From a virus, in the IMG/VR virus record IMGVR_UViG_3300022853_000048, positions 1-37,359 of that record: 37,359 bases of DNA; one strand, given 5' to 3'. The stretch's first letter is position 1; each line of letters opens with the position of its first letter. Positions 3,923 to 16,311 of the stretch are shown in pieces. Under the pieces are notes generated by a model. It was given only the letters and a program-made list of their open reading frames with translations, had not been told where the DNA came from and searched no databases. The position numbers were made by a program, and so were the translations under genes.

Positions 3923-4108
3923 TTAATCGCATACATCTTCTTTATTTTCTTCAATTGGTACGTGGCCCGCGGTCCGCGCTTCTTTATACCAGTCGAAGAC
4001 CAGTCGGAGTTGTCCGCCGATGGTTCTGCCCTCTGCTTTAGACAGGTATTTAATTTCTTCGTACACTTCCCGCGGTACAAGTACGCTTTTCCAACGTGTG
4101 GTATCCAT
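3923..4108 (-). CDS. Ribbon-helix-helix transcriptional regulator (61 aa)
   Basis: The chain is a compact Arc/MetJ/CopG-type fold: a short beta strand WKSVLVP (residues 6-12), helix 1 REVYEEIKYLSKAEG, a turn RTIGG, and helix 2 QLRLVFDWYKEAR. RHH dimers bind DNA with the paired strands, and small phage versions usually autoregulate. The ORF is open back to 4168. The ATG at 4108 is chosen because GGAG lies 9 nt upstream and the domain starts right after it. It is divergent from the ATP-grasp gene; between the two starts is a tandem ATGCAAGA repeat that is a natural operator candidate. A terminator follows about 70 nt after its stop. Confidence 0.75.
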   Translation of the reverse strand: MDTTRWKSVLVPREVYEEIKYLSKAEGRTIGGQLRLVFDWYKEARTAGHVPIEENKEDVCD

Positions 4109-4141
4109 TTTTTTTGCTCCAAGTCCCGCTTCATCTAGGAT

Positions 4142-4170
4142 ATTATAGGAGTATATGCAAGAATGCAAGA
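4142..4170. promoter_or_regulatory. Divergent promoter region with tandem 8-bp operator-like repeat
   Basis: On the minus strand TATAAT (4142-4147) is a consensus -10 for the RHH gene. The only nearby -35-like element, TTGCAT, lies 15 nt away. The perfect tandem repeat ATGCAAGA-ATGCAAGA (4155-4170) lies where that -35 would be, and 15 nt before the ATP-grasp start codon. Short tandem boxes of this size suit RHH dimers. A plus-strand promoter is not obvious. Confidence 0.5.
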
Positions 4171-4185
4171 AAAAGAGGGTTTACT

Positions 4186-4935
4186 ATGGATTATGTGTTG
4201 TTTGGACAGATGGACGATCCTAACATTGCGGCGCTGCGCCCGCATTTTGATTTATTTCTGGATCAGGCGAGTGATTATACGTGGGACATAAATACAAACA
4301 CCCTTGTTTGTAACGATGAGCGCGTTAAGATGCGCGGTTTTTTTGGCAGGGCCAATGTGTTTACAAAGAACACGCATCAACGTTTCAACAATTGGCATCT
4401 TATGGCGAATTACTTGGACGCTAACTCGCATGTGTCTCGTTATAACAGGCGTTATAACCATGGCACACCTATCAAAGCTTCTAACTTGCGTCGGGCCGTG
4501 GCCGCGGGCCTTGAGATACCGCGCACGATTATTGGCAAGGGGCCTTTGGAGGGCGATTGCATATTTAAGCCGTTGACGGGCGGGGCGCATTGCATGTCCG
4601 GCAATCAAACGAGTTGGACGGGTATTATTCAAAACCGTATGCCGGGGGTTAATCGTCGGTTATTTTTGGTCGGGGATCAGCACTTTGGCTTTAAGTTAGA
4701 GACGACGGCTTTGGATTACCGTGACGATCCGCACGTTGTTGTGACCAAAGAGGTGTTTGCGCAAGATATTGCGCACAAAGTACGGTCCGTGGCCCACGGT
4801 CTAGGTTTAACCTTTTGTGCAGCCGATTTTATGGACGACGTGTTTCTGGAAATAAACAGCGGACCGATGTTTGCGGCGTTTGATCGTGTTGTTGATGGTG
4901 CGCTTGCGAGTGCTATTCGCTCGGAGTTGGCATAA
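4186..4935 (+). CDS. ATP-grasp ligase, MvdD/graspetide-synthetase-like
   Basis: ATP-grasp enzymes activate a carboxylate as acyl-phosphate and join it to an amine, hydroxyl or thiol. Visible landmarks (249-aa form): K97 in PIKASN; GLEIPRTIIG (108-117), like the GLPVPRTLVT box of RimK/MvdD enzymes; K128 in IFKPLTGG; hinge IIQNRMPG (147-154); RRLFLVGDQHFGFKLE (157-172); DYR (177-179); D214; and the metal-binding FLEINSGP (220-227, E222 and N224). The N-terminal 95 residues form a separate pre-domain, as in graspetide synthetases. AGAGGG precedes the ATG at 4186. The ORF is open further upstream to 4096, but that part has no support. It is one of only three plus-strand genes, divergent from an RHH regulator, moron-like. 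No precursor peptide is evident. The alternative is an R2K-clade phage ATP-grasp. Fold sure; substrate unknown. Confidence 0.82.
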   Translation: MDYVLFGQMDDPNIAALRPHFDLFLDQASDYTWDINTNTLVCNDERVKMRGFFGRANVFTKNTHQRFNNWHLMANYLDANSHVSRYNRRYNHGTPIKASNLRRAVAAGLEIPRTIIGKGPLEGDCIFKPLTGGAHCMSGNQTSWTGIIQNRMPGVNRRLFLVGDQHFGFKLETTALDYRDDPHVVVTKEVFAQDIAHKVRSVAHGLGLTFCAADFMDDVFLEINSGPMFAAFDRVVDGALASAIRSELA

Positions 4936-4965
4936 AAAAACCCCCAACCTTTGCGGGCTGGGGGG
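4934..4965 (-). terminator. Rho-independent terminator of the replication operon
   Basis: CCCCCAACC (4941-4949) pairs with GG and TGGGGG at 4956-4964 with one A-C mismatch and a 5-nt loop. On the minus strand the stem is followed by TTTTTTT. It ends the long DNA polymerase transcript. The ATP-grasp stop codon abuts its plus-strand side, where there is no T-run. Confidence 0.85.
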
Positions 4966-5005: not shown

Positions 5006-6901
5006 TCACATGGACTCGCCCCATGATGGTCCCATTTCAATGTCACATTTACTCGGGACTTCAAGTGGTAGTACATTCTCCATTATTCTAGCAATTTCTT
5101 GGGCCTCGTCAACATCTTTAACGGACATTGCTATTTCATCGTGGATTTGGATGAGCGGCAGCTTGCCTATCTTGTAGAGAGCCACCATTGCCTTCTTTGT
5201 CATGTCGGCAGCCGACGCTTGGATCAATCTGTTCAGGGCTTTGTACGTGTAAGCCCTCTTCAGGCGTGTGGTAGGCCCGTAGGCGTCCACAGCGTCCTTG
5301 TAAGACATGGCTTTGTTCATTGCGAACGTATCCGGCTCCCACATTTCAAAGCGGCACTTACGGCCTCCCAGTGAGCGTATAGCGCCCGCCGAAGATTTCT
5401 CGTTCAGCCGGTTCATGACGCCGGTCATCAGTCCTTTAACGAACGGGACGCGCTCGTGGTATTGTTTGACCAGTTTTTTGGCCTCTTCAACAGAGATGTC
5501 CAAGCTTTCGGCCATCTTATTCACGCCCATGCCATACATCAGACCAAGGTTGATGGTCTTTGCTTGCTTACGCGGGATGTTTGTCATCTCGGCAACCATG
5601 GTGTGGAAGTCAGTTGAGGGGTCGGTGTTGTACGCTTCGACAAAATCGGCCGCCCCTTCCAGCGGAATGCCGCGTGTTTTGCCATATACATGAGCGTAAT
5701 GGACCAAGATGCGCGGTTCTTGTTGCGAGTAGTCGATAGCCGCCCACTGGTCGCCTTCTTCTGGCAGGAACAAACTACGGATCATGGGACCAAGCTCTGG
5801 GTCGCGGGCCGGGATTTGTTGTAAATTAGGGTTGGACATTGATATGCGTCCCGAAACCGTTCCGCCATCATCTGACCGGATTTGGTTAATGTGCGAATGT
5901 ATGCGCCCATCGGATCGGCAGTGTTTTATTATTGTGTTGATGAACGTGCCCGACGTTTTGTTTAGGTTACGGGCTTCAACAACCAGCTTTGCCACGGGGT
6001 GCGGGTTTTCGTTCAGGAACTGTTTAGTAAACGACGGAGCGCCTTTTTCTGTTTTGGGGTATGATATGTCCAGCTTATCGAACGCTTTTGACAGCGATTG
6101 TGCGGCCCATATCTCCACATCCGTCCCCGTGATGCGTTTAACTTCCTTCATAACTTCTTTTTCGCGCTTCAGAAGCATGTCTCTGGTCCGTTCGACGCGG
6201 TTCACGTCTATTCGAACGCCGCGCATTGTCATATCGACAAGGCAGGGCAGGAGGTCGAGTTCTATGTTAGCAATGCTCCACAGGTCTTCTTTACCTAACA
6301 TTGTGGAAAAGTAATTCCAAAGCTCCAGTGTTAAGACGGCATCGACTTCGGCGTATGGCCCGACATACATTGCAGGCATCTTCCACATCTCGGCTTTTGG
6401 ATCGACGCCAAACTCCCGCGCTGCTTGCACGAGTGCTTTCTCGGACTTAGTTTTTCCAAGGTGTTCGTATGCCAGCGCGTTTAGGCTGTAGCTGAAACGG
6501 TTTTCGTCAAGCAGGGAGGCTACCAACATGGTATCGATGATGCGTCCGTTGACCGTGAAACCCATGCGTTTGATCCAGCCCAGATCGTATTGGGCGTTGT
6601 GCATGATTTTATCGGCAGGGCATTCGAATACTTTGCGCAGCCATTTGTTGACCTGTTTTTCGTCAAGATTACCGCCGCCAAGGTGTCGGATCGGAATGTA
6701 CCCTGACCAACCGTCTACGGCTACGGCATAACCCACGACTTCCCCGTCGCCTGTTGCCCAACCCGGACCATTCTTTTTCAGGTTCGGGTCGCGTGTTTCA
6801 ACGTCGATTGCAATTTTACCTGCGCCCGTAAGGTCTGGTAGTTCGATGGGCGGAACCCATTCACTTTTGGGGGCGAACATAGCCATTTGCAAATTTGCCA
6901 T
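5006..6901 (-). CDS. polA: DNA polymerase I (family A) with 3'-5' exonuclease
   Basis: Replicative phage polymerase of 631 aa without the 5'-3' exonuclease domain. The DnaQ-like exonuclease is intact: IAIDVET (D33, E35), HNAQYD (D106), YAEVD (Y183, D187). Polymerase motif A is AAIDYSQQEPR (D390), motif B is RKQAKTINLGLMYG (R444, K448, Y456) and motif C is IQIHDE (587-589). The position equivalent to E. coli Phe762 is Leu (L452), the variant discussed for viral PolA as slower or more accurate and linked to temperate-like replication. It is the last gene of the replication operon, followed by a strong terminator; its 5' end overlaps the preceding gene by 41 nt. Confidence 0.97.
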   Translation of the reverse strand: MANLQMAMFAPKSEWVPPIELPDLTGAGKIAIDVETRDPNLKKNGPGWATGDGEVVGYAVAVDGWSGYIPIRHLGGGNLDEKQVNKWLRKVFECPADKIMHNAQYDLGWIKRMGFTVNGRIIDTMLVASLLDENRFSYSLNALAYEHLGKTKSEKALVQAAREFGVDPKAEMWKMPAMYVGPYAEVDAVLTLELWNYFSTMLGKEDLWSIANIELDLLPCLVDMTMRGVRIDVNRVERTRDMLLKREKEVMKEVKRITGTDVEIWAAQSLSKAFDKLDISYPKTEKGAPSFTKQFLNENPHPVAKLVVEARNLNKTSGTFINTIIKHCRSDGRIHSHINQIRSDDGGTVSGRISMSNPNLQQIPARDPELGPMIRSLFLPEEGDQWAAIDYSQQEPRILVHYAHVYGKTRGIPLEGAADFVEAYNTDPSTDFHTMVAEMTNIPRKQAKTINLGLMYGMGVNKMAESLDISVEEAKKLVKQYHERVPFVKGLMTGVMNRLNEKSSAGAIRSLGGRKCRFEMWEPDTFAMNKAMSYKDAVDAYGPTTRLKRAYTYKALNRLIQASAADMTKKAMVALYKIGKLPLIQIHDEIAMSVKDVDEAQEIARIMENVLPLEVPSKCDIEMGPSWGESM

Positions 6902-12676: not shown

Positions 12677-14125
12677 ATGCGTGGATTTGATTACAAGACC
12701 AATCCGTATGACCACCAGAGAAAAGCGTTAGAAGCTTCGTGGGCCGAGGAGTATTATGCACTGTTTATGGAGATGGGAACAGGTAAAACCAAAGTTGCTA
12801 TTGATACCATGGCGGTTCTTTACGAGGCTGGCAAGATCAATGCGGCTTTAGTCGTTGCGCCCAAAGGGGTTTATGACAACTGGGTCCAGAACGAAATCCC
12901 CGCGCATTTACCGGACCGGATCGAACGAACCTTGCTGCGTTGGACCCCCGCTAAGACAAAACGTATGGAAATAAACTTGAAAGACTTTATTGTCGGGGAC
13001 CTTAACGGCATTAAAATATTTGTCATAAACATAGAGGCGTTCTCTACGTCTCGGGGTACAGATGCGGCAACGGCCTTCCTGTACCAAAATCCCAACAATA
13101 TTGTGATAGTGGACGAAAGCACCACCATCAAAAACCGCAAAGCCGCGCGGACAAAAAACATTGTTAAGTTGCAAGAGTATTCAAAGTACCGCCGCATCCT
13201 GACAGGCTCCCCTATTACTAAGAGCCCCATGGATTTGTTCAGCCAATGCGATTTTCTTAAGAACAAGGCGCTGGGGTTTAACAGCTACTTTGCTTTTCAA
13301 GCGAGATACGCAAATATCCAGCAACGGACCATGGGGCACCGCAGTTTTCAACAGATCGTAGGATACCGCCGGTTAGACGAACTTTCGGAAAAGTTAGACA
13401 CTTTTAGCGACAGGGTTTTGAAACAGGATTGCTTAGACCTACCCGAAAAGGTTTATGTCCGTCGGAACATAGAGTTTACTCCCGAACAAAAGAAACTTTA
13501 TACGCAGATGAAGAAGCTGGCGTTAGCAAAGCTTGAAAGCGGGGAGCTTGCCACAACGGCCAGTGTCCTGACGCAGATCATGCGCCTGCAACAGATATGC
13601 TGCGGGTTTCTAAAACCCGACGATGGCGAAATAGAAACCATTCCAAGCAACCGTTTAAAAGAATTGTTGGAACTTTCTGACGAGGTTCAGGGCAAAGCTA
13701 TAATCTGGGCCACTTACACGCACGACATCTTGCGTATTGAGGAAGAGTTAAAGCTCCGGTTTGGACCGGACTCGGTAGCCACTTACTACGGCGGTACGCC
13801 ACAAGATCAACGCCAAGAGATCGTCACACGGTTTCAGGACAAGGCTGACCCCCTGCGGTTCTTTGTTGGTCAACCGCGAACCGGTGGTTACGGCATTACC
13901 TTGACGGCTGCCAACACCGTGATTTACTTTTCTAATAGTTACGATCTGGAGATTAGGTTGCAATCCGAGGACCGCGCACACCGGATCGGGCAGACAAACA
14001 AGGTAACTTATATTGATATGGTTTCGCCCGACACCATCGACGAAAAGATATTGCAGGCGTTGCGCAGTAAAATTGATATTGCGGGGCAGGTTTTAGGTGA
14101 AGACGCAAAGGACTGGTTGAAATAA
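12677..14125 (+). CDS. SNF2-like SF2 helicase/ATPase
   Basis: A 482-aa SF2 helicase of the SNF2 group. Motifs: MGTGKT (33-38); Ia LVVAPKGVYDNW; II VDEST (145-149, DEST in place of DEAH); III LTGSP (175-179); IV and V in WATYTH and GQPRTGGYGITLTAA; VI QSEDRAHRIGQ (429-439), the hallmark of SNF2 proteins. SNF2 ATPases translocate on double-stranded DNA and remodel nucleoprotein. Phage copies often stand in for the replicative helicase or strip proteins. AAGGA precedes the ATG. It is plus-strand, with its own promoter paired with the main replication promoter, so both halves should fire together. Confidence 0.92.
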   Translation: MRGFDYKTNPYDHQRKALEASWAEEYYALFMEMGTGKTKVAIDTMAVLYEAGKINAALVVAPKGVYDNWVQNEIPAHLPDRIERTLLRWTPAKTKRMEINLKDFIVGDLNGIKIFVINIEAFSTSRGTDAATAFLYQNPNNIVIVDESTTIKNRKAARTKNIVKLQEYSKYRRILTGSPITKSPMDLFSQCDFLKNKALGFNSYFAFQARYANIQQRTMGHRSFQQIVGYRRLDELSEKLDTFSDRVLKQDCLDLPEKVYVRRNIEFTPEQKKLYTQMKKLALAKLESGELATTASVLTQIMRLQQICCGFLKPDDGEIETIPSNRLKELLELSDEVQGKAIIWATYTHDILRIEEELKLRFGPDSVATYYGGTPQDQRQEIVTRFQDKADPLRFFVGQPRTGGYGITLTAANTVIYFSNSYDLEIRLQSEDRAHRIGQTNKVTYIDMVSPDTIDEKILQALRSKIDIAGQVLGEDAKDWLK

Positions 14126-14271
14126 TGACTAAACAAGAACAAATATTAACAACCCTCGAAAACAGGCTGTCAGGCCTTCTTGCGGAGACTGAAAACCGCA
14201 ACCGGCTAGGCCTCAAGCAAAAGCTTGAGGAAATCCGTAGTCTGCTAGAAATGCTGAAGGCTAGTTTATAG
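14125..14271 (+). CDS. Small coiled-coil protein (48 aa)
   Basis: A 48-codon ORF starting inside the helicase stop (TAATG), so translationally coupled. It is one amphipathic helix (QEQILTTLENRLSGLLAETE, then LKQKLEEIRSLLEMLKASL). The protein may be a partner of the helicase. Its coding sequence holds a perfect 8-bp hairpin (14211-14230). Its stop overlaps the stop of the converging lytic transglycosylase gene on the other strand by 6 nt. Confidence 0.65.
   Translation: MTKQEQILTTLENRLSGLLAETENRNRLGLKQKLEEIRSLLEMLKASL
14211..14230. other. Perfect hairpin with AAAA loop inside the 48-aa ORF
   Basis: CCTCAAGC (14211-14218), AAAA, GCTTGAGG (14223-14230). There is no T-run on either strand. It sits where the plus-strand helicase transcript and the minus-strand virion transcript converge, about 40 nt before the overlapping stops. 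It may be a weak bidirectional terminator, an RNA-stability element or chance. Confidence 0.45.
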
Positions 14272-16311
14272 CCTGAAGTTACCCTGTGGGTCGGGTCCGC
14301 GGAGCGGGGGTGGTCCAGAAACTTCCCCGCCGCTTGCAAACGCGCTAGGCATCGGTTGCTCGTAGTCATACGCGGCGTATTGTTTAAACATTTGACCAAT
14401 CCCTGTTTCTTGCGGCGGTTCTGGTCTAGCTTGGGGACGAATAAGAGGGGCAGCGGTTGCTTGCGCAACTTCGGGCTCTTGGTTCATCATCAAATATTCA
14501 CTGACCTGTTGCGGCGTAGGGGTATAACCCGGTTGCCCAATTCCTTCTGGACGCGCTCGTGGTTTTGGGGCCGGGTCTTCACCTTCGGCCATTTGAAAGA
14601 ATCCGTCCATAGCAGGCATTATTTCGCCTTCGGCGGCACCGTGGATTATAGAAACGTACTTTCGGGTTTCGTCAAAGGGCGGAACTCCGCCATACTTCCT
14701 TACATTTCCCGGGCCTGCATTATATGCGGCAAGGGCCAAGGGCACCGTACCAAAGTCCTGTAGCTGTTGCTTGAGGTATTTAATACCGCCAATCACGTTT
14801 TGTTTTGGATCGTTAGGGTCCACACCTAGTTCTTTGGCGGTTCCGGGCATAAGCTGCATAAGGCCAATGGCCCCTTTTTGGCTTACGGGGCCCTGACGGC
14901 CTCTGTTTTCTTGATATATGACGCGCAAAACTAGCTCGGGATCAACGTTTTGTTCGAGGGCTAATTCCATGGGATCAAACCCGTAGTCTTCCATTATTTT
15001 CGTTCTTACCGCGGTAAGTTGTTCCGGGGTAGCCGGGCCTTGTACCGCGCCGCCCTCCGCAAAGAGTTGGGCAGAAATCTCGGGCCCGCCGCCCATCAAA
15101 TTCGTTAGATTATTGCCGCCGCCACCGTCTTCGCCCATGGCTTGGGTAGTAGCTAAGAAACCCCCGCCGAAATCGTTAAAACCTCCGCCACCGTCTTCAC
15201 CCATGGCCATAGTGCTTGCCGAAAGGCCAAAAAAGCCGCCACTGCCGTCTTCGCCTATTGCACGGGTCATACCGCCCATAGCGCCCATAGGTGACCTTTC
15301 GGGGCTCTCAAACTGTTTCAGGCTGTCGAGGTGCATTTGTCCGCCGCCAAAACCAAAGCTTTCTTCCGCCCCAAAATGAGCGCGTTCAGCCTCGTCCACC
15401 ATGCCAACAAAGTGGCCCACATCGCCATCGATGCTGTTTTGGACGTTCTCCATAGCTTTCTGACCGTAAGTGCCCATCAAGTATTCTTGGTAGTTTTTGA
15501 GAGGAGAGCCGCGCAAGTCGGCCATTTGGCTGCCGAACTGGTTTGGCATCGGGCCGCCGGACTGTCGTTGGCTGAAAGCCTGCTCTTGAAAAAGACCGCC
15601 AATACCGCTCATATCGGGTTGTTTAGCCACAGACATGGCTGGTTGCAAACTGGCGGCATACGGGGAAGCTATTGCACCACCCTGCGCGTAATTTTGTACC
15701 ATACCACCATCTCCAAATCCCATGGCCGTGGAGCTTAGTCCTGCATTCCCGGCTAAATTAATATCTCCAGCTTGGAACCCGGCAGAGCCTGCCCCGTCCC
15801 GAACCAACTGCTCTCCAGCACCACTTCCAAAAGCGCCCGACGTGTTTCCAATAACAGCTTGTGCTGTAGCACTGGCCGCCCCACGACGTTGTGCGCGGGC
15901 TTGGGACTCTTCAATAAAAACGTCTACGTCATCGCCTGAAAAACCGGGGTCGTCAGGTGCGACAGGAGCCGACCCGCCTTCAAAAACAGGTGCGGTACTC
16001 GTAAAGTTTCCCGGAGACTTTACCGTACCAGACCAACTCTCATACGGTGTTGTTCTGTCCGTAGCATTCCATTTTTCGATGGCCGCGTTATAAGTTTCGC
16101 GGTCCTGTTGCCATTGAGCAAGGTTCGCGTTCCACGGTTCGATCTGGTTGGTGTTAAAGTCATCCACCAGCTTTTGGTAATCGCCAGCTTGTGTTTTATA
16201 CTGCCCCAAAGCGGTGTTGTAGATACCGATCCGGTTATCATAATCCTCCATGATCTTTTTGTCAGTGTCGTAGTAACGATAATCAGGAGACGCATAATTT
16301 ACAATTGACAT
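14266..16311 (-). CDS. Virion-associated lytic transglycosylase (SLT domain)
   Basis: A 681-aa internal virion protein. Residues about 440-560 form a soluble-lytic-transglycosylase domain: VIYQENRG (catalytic E468), AIGLMQLMPGTA (481-492), AAYNAGPGNV (528-537) and a final TRKYV. It would cut peptidoglycan during DNA ejection. The N-terminal 100 residues are helical and Tyr/Trp/Asn-rich. The middle is low-complexity Gly-rich, with three imperfect repeats of the AMGEDGGGG type (about 349-400). Short YAQGGAI, FAEGGAV and FASGGEV motifs also occur in other virion proteins here. It is the last gene of the virion operon and converges on the helicase operon without an obvious terminator. Confidence 0.9.
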   Translation of the reverse strand: MSIVNYASPDYRYYDTDKKIMEDYDNRIGIYNTALGQYKTQAGDYQKLVDDFNTNQIEPWNANLAQWQQDRETYNAAIEKWNATDRTTPYESWSGTVKSPGNFTSTAPVFEGGSAPVAPDDPGFSGDDVDVFIEESQARAQRRGAASATAQAVIGNTSGAFGSGAGEQLVRDGAGSAGFQAGDINLAGNAGLSSTAMGFGDGGMVQNYAQGGAIASPYAASLQPAMSVAKQPDMSGIGGLFQEQAFSQRQSGGPMPNQFGSQMADLRGSPLKNYQEYLMGTYGQKAMENVQNSIDGDVGHFVGMVDEAERAHFGAEESFGFGGGQMHLDSLKQFESPERSPMGAMGGMTRAIGEDGSGGFFGLSASTMAMGEDGGGGFNDFGGGFLATTQAMGEDGGGGNNLTNLMGGGPEISAQLFAEGGAVQGPATPEQLTAVRTKIMEDYGFDPMELALEQNVDPELVLRVIYQENRGRQGPVSQKGAIGLMQLMPGTAKELGVDPNDPKQNVIGGIKYLKQQLQDFGTVPLALAAYNAGPGNVRKYGGVPPFDETRKYVSIIHGAAEGEIMPAMDGFFQMAEGEDPAPKPRARPEGIGQPGYTPTPQQVSEYLMMNQEPEVAQATAAPLIRPQARPEPPQETGIGQMFKQYAAYDYEQPMPSAFASGGEVSGPPPLRGPDPQGNFRL

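Follow-up and report, generated by a model that had tools for sequence, protein, structure and literature searches.

A putative phage-borne graspetide synthetase and candidate core repeats inside virion proteins of a tailed-phage lineage

What could an ATP-grasp ligase be doing in a phage genome that places no evident precursor peptide beside it? The window, by which we mean the whole stretch of 37,359 nucleotides analysed here (positions 1 to 37,359 of IMG/VR record IMGVR_UViG_3300022853_000048), encodes such a ligase divergently from a small ribbon-helix-helix (RHH) protein (Table 1). A reading made from the letters alone, which we call the sequence-only reading, had taken the two genes as a moron-like cassette for protein modification. 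The answer that we consider very probable is that the ligase is a phage-borne graspetide synthetase of the type of PsnB, the plesiocin synthetase, and that it macrocyclises hairpins inside phage virion proteins. It draws on observations of enzyme family, fold, motifs and selection, of the cores and their co-occurrence with the enzyme, and of modular insertion and loss.

Table 1. Features of the ligase locus and of the predicted substrate in the window
Feature	Position	Strand	Remarks
RHH regulator, 61 aa	3923..4108	-	ATG at 4108; resident in nearly all relatives
Control region, operator-like segment	4134..4175		TCTAGGATATTATAGGAGTATATGCAAGAATGCAAGAAAAAG; between RHH and ATP-grasp
ATP-grasp ligase, graspetide-synthetase-like, 249 aa	4186..4935	+	ATG at 4186, stop ends at 4935; K128, Q149, D177-Y178-R179, D214, E222, N224
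Intrinsic terminator of the DNA polymerase	4941..4964	-	just beyond the ATP-grasp stop
Family A DNA polymerase	5006..6901	-	anchor gene for surveying the locus in relatives
Virion/lytic protein P0003, 681 aa, predicted substrate	14266..16311	-	three TxAxGED cores
SLT transglycosylase domain of P0003, residues 451-544	14680..14961	-	PF01464, E=4e-22
Core block of P0003: TRAIGED (349-355), STMAMGED (367-374), TTQAMGED (388-395)	15127..15267	-	Gly-rich spacer after each core

The ligase and its family

The ligase gene is genuine, with a complete frame from ATG to stop, and purifying selection acts strongly on its intact copies, with dN/dS of 0.04-0.17 for pairs at 72-96% identity. The five residues that had been picked out as the ATP-grasp set (K128, Q149, D214, E222 and N224) never vary in an alignment that extends to relatives at 47% identity, nor do they, or D177-Y178-R179, when a planctomycete homolog is added; the box GLEIPRTIIG, also named beforehand, is present at residues 108-117. 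In IMG/VR, a first set of 18 loci matched the ligase, and later searches gave relatives at 63%, about 55% and 47% identity. The 50,697 records of isolate phages held no relative of it, no match for the RHH protein and no core repeats of the kind described below. Pfam gave no family for the window protein at E<=1, and its best match in PHROGs was noise.

Profile, NCBIfam and structure comparisons all back the reading of the protein as akin to graspetide synthetases. A profile built from ten of the phage sequences and run against all PDB chains matched only five sequences, every one a graspetide synthetase: PsnB (PDB 7drm-7drp) with an E value of 6e-9, AMdnB with 8.6e-6, 9bou (named PruB in the structure search) with 1e-5, MdnB with 1.3e-3 and MdnC with 0.015. 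Among the NCBIfam models, GRASP_SAV_5884 (TIGR04187; best 1.5e-12) and MvdC were each matched by all ten relatives, and MvdD and GRASP_w_spasm by some. The window protein itself had two matches, both far below the curated cut-offs (for TIGR04187, 32 bits against a cut-off of 350), and by this measure it is a relative of the TIGR04187 subfamily and not a member. An AlphaFold2 model from a 13-sequence alignment reached pLDDT 86.9 and pTM 0.84; a model from a shallow alignment of 9 near-identical sequences reached pLDDT 40 and was discarded. When the retained model was compared with the PDB by Foldseek, PsnB stood at rank 1 (E=6e-14, TM 0.75), graspetide synthetase chains filled ranks 1-30 and RimK followed from rank 31. 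The best match is not a housekeeping enzyme, and the predicted fold is closest to graspetide synthetases.

The likeness to PsnB, the top match by both profile and predicted fold, extends to motifs and to the general plan of the system. The invariant segment LDYRDDP (DYR being residues 177-179) aligns with the DFR site of PsnB, with Tyr for Phe in the phage, and both enzymes have an xMFxxF stretch after the Mg-binding E-x-N; graspetide synthetases are said to depend critically on a DFR motif for their activity (PMC13097080). Both systems also seem to combine a single ATP-grasp enzyme with multicore substrates in which Thr donors precede Glu/Asp acceptors. The two differ in that identity is only ~17% in the structural alignment, that the 249-aa phage enzyme is cut down in its N-terminal domain and central loops, and that the phage cores lie inside large virion proteins, in contrast to a small leader-core precursor. 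Against its nearest bacterial homologs, too, the phage enzyme is ~50 residues shorter, the gaps falling in the N-terminal domain and a central loop, and these trimmed parts imply that substrate recognition must differ from that of the bacterial enzymes. The microviridin MvdC-MvdD and PruB synthetases belong to the same superfamily by NCBIfam, PDB profile and fold, but their scores are below that of PsnB and their core topology is unlike that of the phage cores.

A resident regulator and an optional ligase

The RHH gene is real as well: of 80 related contigs, nearly all have it downstream of the polymerase. Its protein matches Pfam RHH_5 with E=0.0014 and 18.7 bits, under the curated cut-off of 26. 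The ~40 bp upstream of it are conserved with or without the ATP-grasp gene, and the gap between polymerase and RHH in relatives holds about 70-260 bp, other DNA, or the ATP-grasp gene. The sequence-only reading had paired the RHH and ATP-grasp genes. The pairing stands in so far as all examined contigs with a complete ATP-grasp locus also carry RHH, in divergent or operonic arrangement, and falls in so far as many relatives have RHH and its control region but no ligase. Since they are so common alone, RHH is the resident of the locus and the ligase an optional guest on the RHH control region that was deleted several times; an obligate two-gene system was rejected on this ground. RHH would presumably regulate the ligase. 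A precursor hidden in the tail of the RHH protein was also considered and rejected, as the tail is not conserved. The polymerase terminator said to bound the ligase gene is there; as a correction, the ligase gene is not alone on the plus strand of the window, which also carries an SNF2 helicase gene at 12677-14125.

The losses can be seen in close relatives. One contig (L018) is the same as the window around the locus bar one base and carries a clean in-frame deletion of 669 bp that leaves 26 codons, and other in-frame remnants were found in L027-L029 and L112/L113. Repeated loss implies that the enzyme is dispensable in some settings. In all remnants seen (L018:2261-2340; L027:8545-8667; L112:3240-3464; L113:4989-5213) the start and the end of the gene stay in one frame, with 26, 40 or 74 codons left, and the longest carries two deletions. 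The slot of the ligase holds a 103-aa ORF in L099, by eye like a small nuclease-like protein, and 450-1300 bp of unrelated DNA stand between polymerase and RHH in other relatives. The window and a 51,861-base contig (L020, IMGVR_UViG_3300023293_000016) share their starting base and differ hardly at all over at least their first 14 kb, which suggests that this base is a true genome end or else a point at which both assemblies broke.

Cores in virion proteins and their co-occurrence with the enzyme

That no precursor adjoins the ligase is correct for the window, but substrate-like cores do occur within it, about 10 kb from the ligase gene. A scan for the core motif picked out exactly one protein of the window, P0003, which has matches among the lytic tail proteins and internal virion proteins of phages. 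Its cores sit mid-protein in a Gly-rich linker, upstream of the transglycosylase domain, and three motif matches were reached in only 1 of 100,000 shuffles of P0003. Neither a leader peptide in P0003 nor, by eye, a leader shared among core proteins was recognised. The transglycosylase gene, intact in the window, is frameshifted into two overlapping frames in the copy from the near-identical contig G001 (L123; G001:14269-16312), possibly by a sequencing or assembly error.

The consensus of 60 unique phage cores is T-T-[MQR]-A-[MVI]-G-E-[ED], with Thr at 48/60 of the first donor sites and 60/60 of the second, and with Glu in 42 and Asp in 18 at the last position; the search pattern includes the second Thr and the G-E, so that their invariance is built in. 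The cores fit TTxxxxEE-like repeats, which we take to be the plesiocin-type (group 2) core motif. Plesiocin itself consists of repeated hairpins (PMC13097080, PMC12291112).

Co-occurrence of enzyme and cores was read from long contigs around the locus. Within the window clade, each of the five distinct phages with an intact ATP-grasp gene (window/G001, G002, G003, G004 and G005) has at least two cores in one protein. The carrier is the transglycosylase in three of them, G005 having a shorter version of the frame (232 aa); in G002 and G003 it is another P/G-rich protein, of the KSLNYAYP type, and a transglycosylase homolog was not found in the contig. The KSLNYAYP homolog of the window phage (in G001) has no cores. 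Conversely, the canonical core is present in none of 11 distinct phages that have a transglycosylase homolog and the polymerase-RHH region but no intact ATP-grasp gene (G006/G007, G008, G010, G013, G014, G015, G016, G019, G023, G034 and G040). By arithmetic such a split of 5 against 11 would arise once in 4368 if random, a figure weakened by shared ancestry, the counts not being independent. The closest contrast is G010, whose polymerase is 93% identical and whose virion protein is about 75% identical over the best segment, and which has no ATP-grasp gene; in the alignment its core block is cleanly missing, i.e. the block is a clean insertion in the core-bearing protein. In G008, where the ATP-grasp gene is decayed, one core-like LSQALGEE is retained. 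Contigs L168-L182, in which cores but no ATP-grasp gene were seen, were rejected as counter-examples, as none covers the polymerase locus, and L171 and the ATP-grasp-positive phage G003 are one contig. The suggestion of a phage virion protein as a possible substrate is supported by matching cores in virion proteins of every ATP-grasp-positive phage checked.

Graspetide precursor genes usually adjoin the synthetase gene, although this does not define the class, and a precursor-like gene does adjoin it in two other settings. In a distant phage clade (L117-L121) polymerase, RHH and ATP-grasp follow in order, the start of the ligase gene overlapping the stop of RHH; in L118-L120 the ligase is followed by a long ORF that holds 5-6 cores (e.g. 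TTMAVGEE, TTQAMGEE, TRAIGED). The other setting is in planctomycetes. A first profile scan of bacterial contigs, based on a near-identical alignment, gave no cellular homolog; a more diverse alignment gave one, in a Gemmataceae genome, adjoining a gene with seven TTLALGEEGNPP-like repeats. Strong homologs were then present in 8 of 102 genomes of the same order, the Gemmatales, and in 7 of these 8 a multicore TTLALGEEGG gene is adjacent. These loci (L231-L238), at 30% identity the nearest cellular homologs found, differ from the phage system in having a small adjacent multicore protein with a twin-arginine-like N-terminus, a longer enzyme and no phage context. Their 33 cores give T-T-x-A-[LV]-G-E-E-G-[GN], and phage and planctomycete cores follow essentially one common consensus, TTxAxGEE. 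The planctomycete multicore proteins (L234:2432-3010, L237:697-1275, L238:134-1258 and neighbours) have a common N-terminal MRHPFDG-like motif and a twin-arginine-like segment, suggesting that the modified protein is exported.

Proposed modification and its alternatives

The pathway that we envision starts with the ligase being expressed from the divergent control region beside the resident, repressor-like RHH gene. With ATP, the enzyme would activate the Glu/Asp side chains of the T-T-x-A-x-G-E-[ED] segments and join them to the preceding Thr/Ser hydroxyls, so that ester (possibly amide) bonds form in each core on the intact virion protein and small nested ester hairpins result within its Gly/Pro-rich stretches. 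The substrate would here be the tail-lysin-like transglycosylase P0003, in close relatives the second P/G-rich protein, and in the distant clade the multicore protein encoded directly downstream. Characterised graspetides are all protease inhibitors (PMC8939145), and whole proteins can be substrates of a graspetide synthetase (PMC12291112). Hairpins placed in the flexible linker ahead of the transglycosylase domain could therefore shield it from host envelope proteases, inhibit these, or stiffen the linker of a protein whose task takes it into the host envelope; this specific role is tentative, and we would put it at somewhat less than an even chance. The wider proposition, that a tailed-phage lineage has a dedicated graspetide synthetase for stapling its own virion proteins and that the core block moves between these proteins, always with the enzyme, is in our judgement likely.

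The virion proteins might instead be storage forms: once cyclised, the cores would be cut out by proteolysis, and the small graspetides so freed would inhibit proteases or serve as signals, with the host or competitors as targets. We consider this rather unlikely. Known graspetides are indeed released peptides (PMC8939145), and repeated cores with flexible spacers are found in plesiocin-type precursors; however, the cores of P0003 lie mid-way in a large protein ahead of its transglycosylase domain, neither a protease nor a transporter gene was noticed next to the ligase, and no leader or cleavage site was recognised. It is less probable still that the enzyme cross-links different virion subunits, as opposed to forming hairpins within one chain. 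The synthetase ThfB can join two assembled protein chains (PMC12291112), and the cores here are repeated within Gly-rich linkers, but each core fits a compact plesiocin hairpin, with donor and acceptor in the same short segment.

That the ligase modifies a host protein, by RimK-like tagging or by cross-linking, and that the core repeats are unrelated structural repeats, is very improbable in view of the strict co-occurrence of enzyme and cores and of the ligase genes that adjoin cores in the second phage clade and in planctomycetes. RimK does come after the graspetide synthetases in the structure search, and the phage R2K ATP-grasps, also phage-carried, are predicted to modify host proteins (PMC7824862), as are other phage ATP-grasp ligases to modify proteins. 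The window protein, however, has no R2K or RimK family match (for R2K there was none in Pfam for it, nor among the members scanned at E<=10), which together with the later structural ranks led us to reject a RimK or R2K type of modifier; its best structural neighbours in BFVD reach TM of only about 0.5. To the idea that the ligase is a selfish insertion in decay that no longer has a function we give hardly any credence: the internal deletions in L018, L027-L029 and L112/L113 are independent and would suit it, but the dN/dS of the intact copies, the invariance of all catalytic-site residues and the co-retention of the cores speak against it.

If hairpins are indeed formed by a PsnB-type synthetase inside virion proteins, RiPP-type macrocyclisation would be a new kind of post-translational modification for phage particles and a natural case of a graspetide enzyme working inside large proteins, with a testable role in protease resistance or inhibition during entry. 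The enzyme kind is already known; what would be new is its carriage by a phage together with cores inside virion proteins. As far as we searched, all graspetide synthetases described so far serve small peptides made by cellular microbes, and the literature covered, for the most part without subscription papers, described no phage-borne graspetide synthetase and no cores in virion proteins. The TxAxGE[DE] repeats also make a simple search rule that finds more candidate virion substrates, those of L168-L182. The P/G-rich proteins of these contigs (e.g. L172:3-1418, L173:2818-4140, L178:3262-5568) have 2 to 9 TTxAxGEE cores each, and several of the proteins also contain dockerin-like DVNxDGxI stretches.
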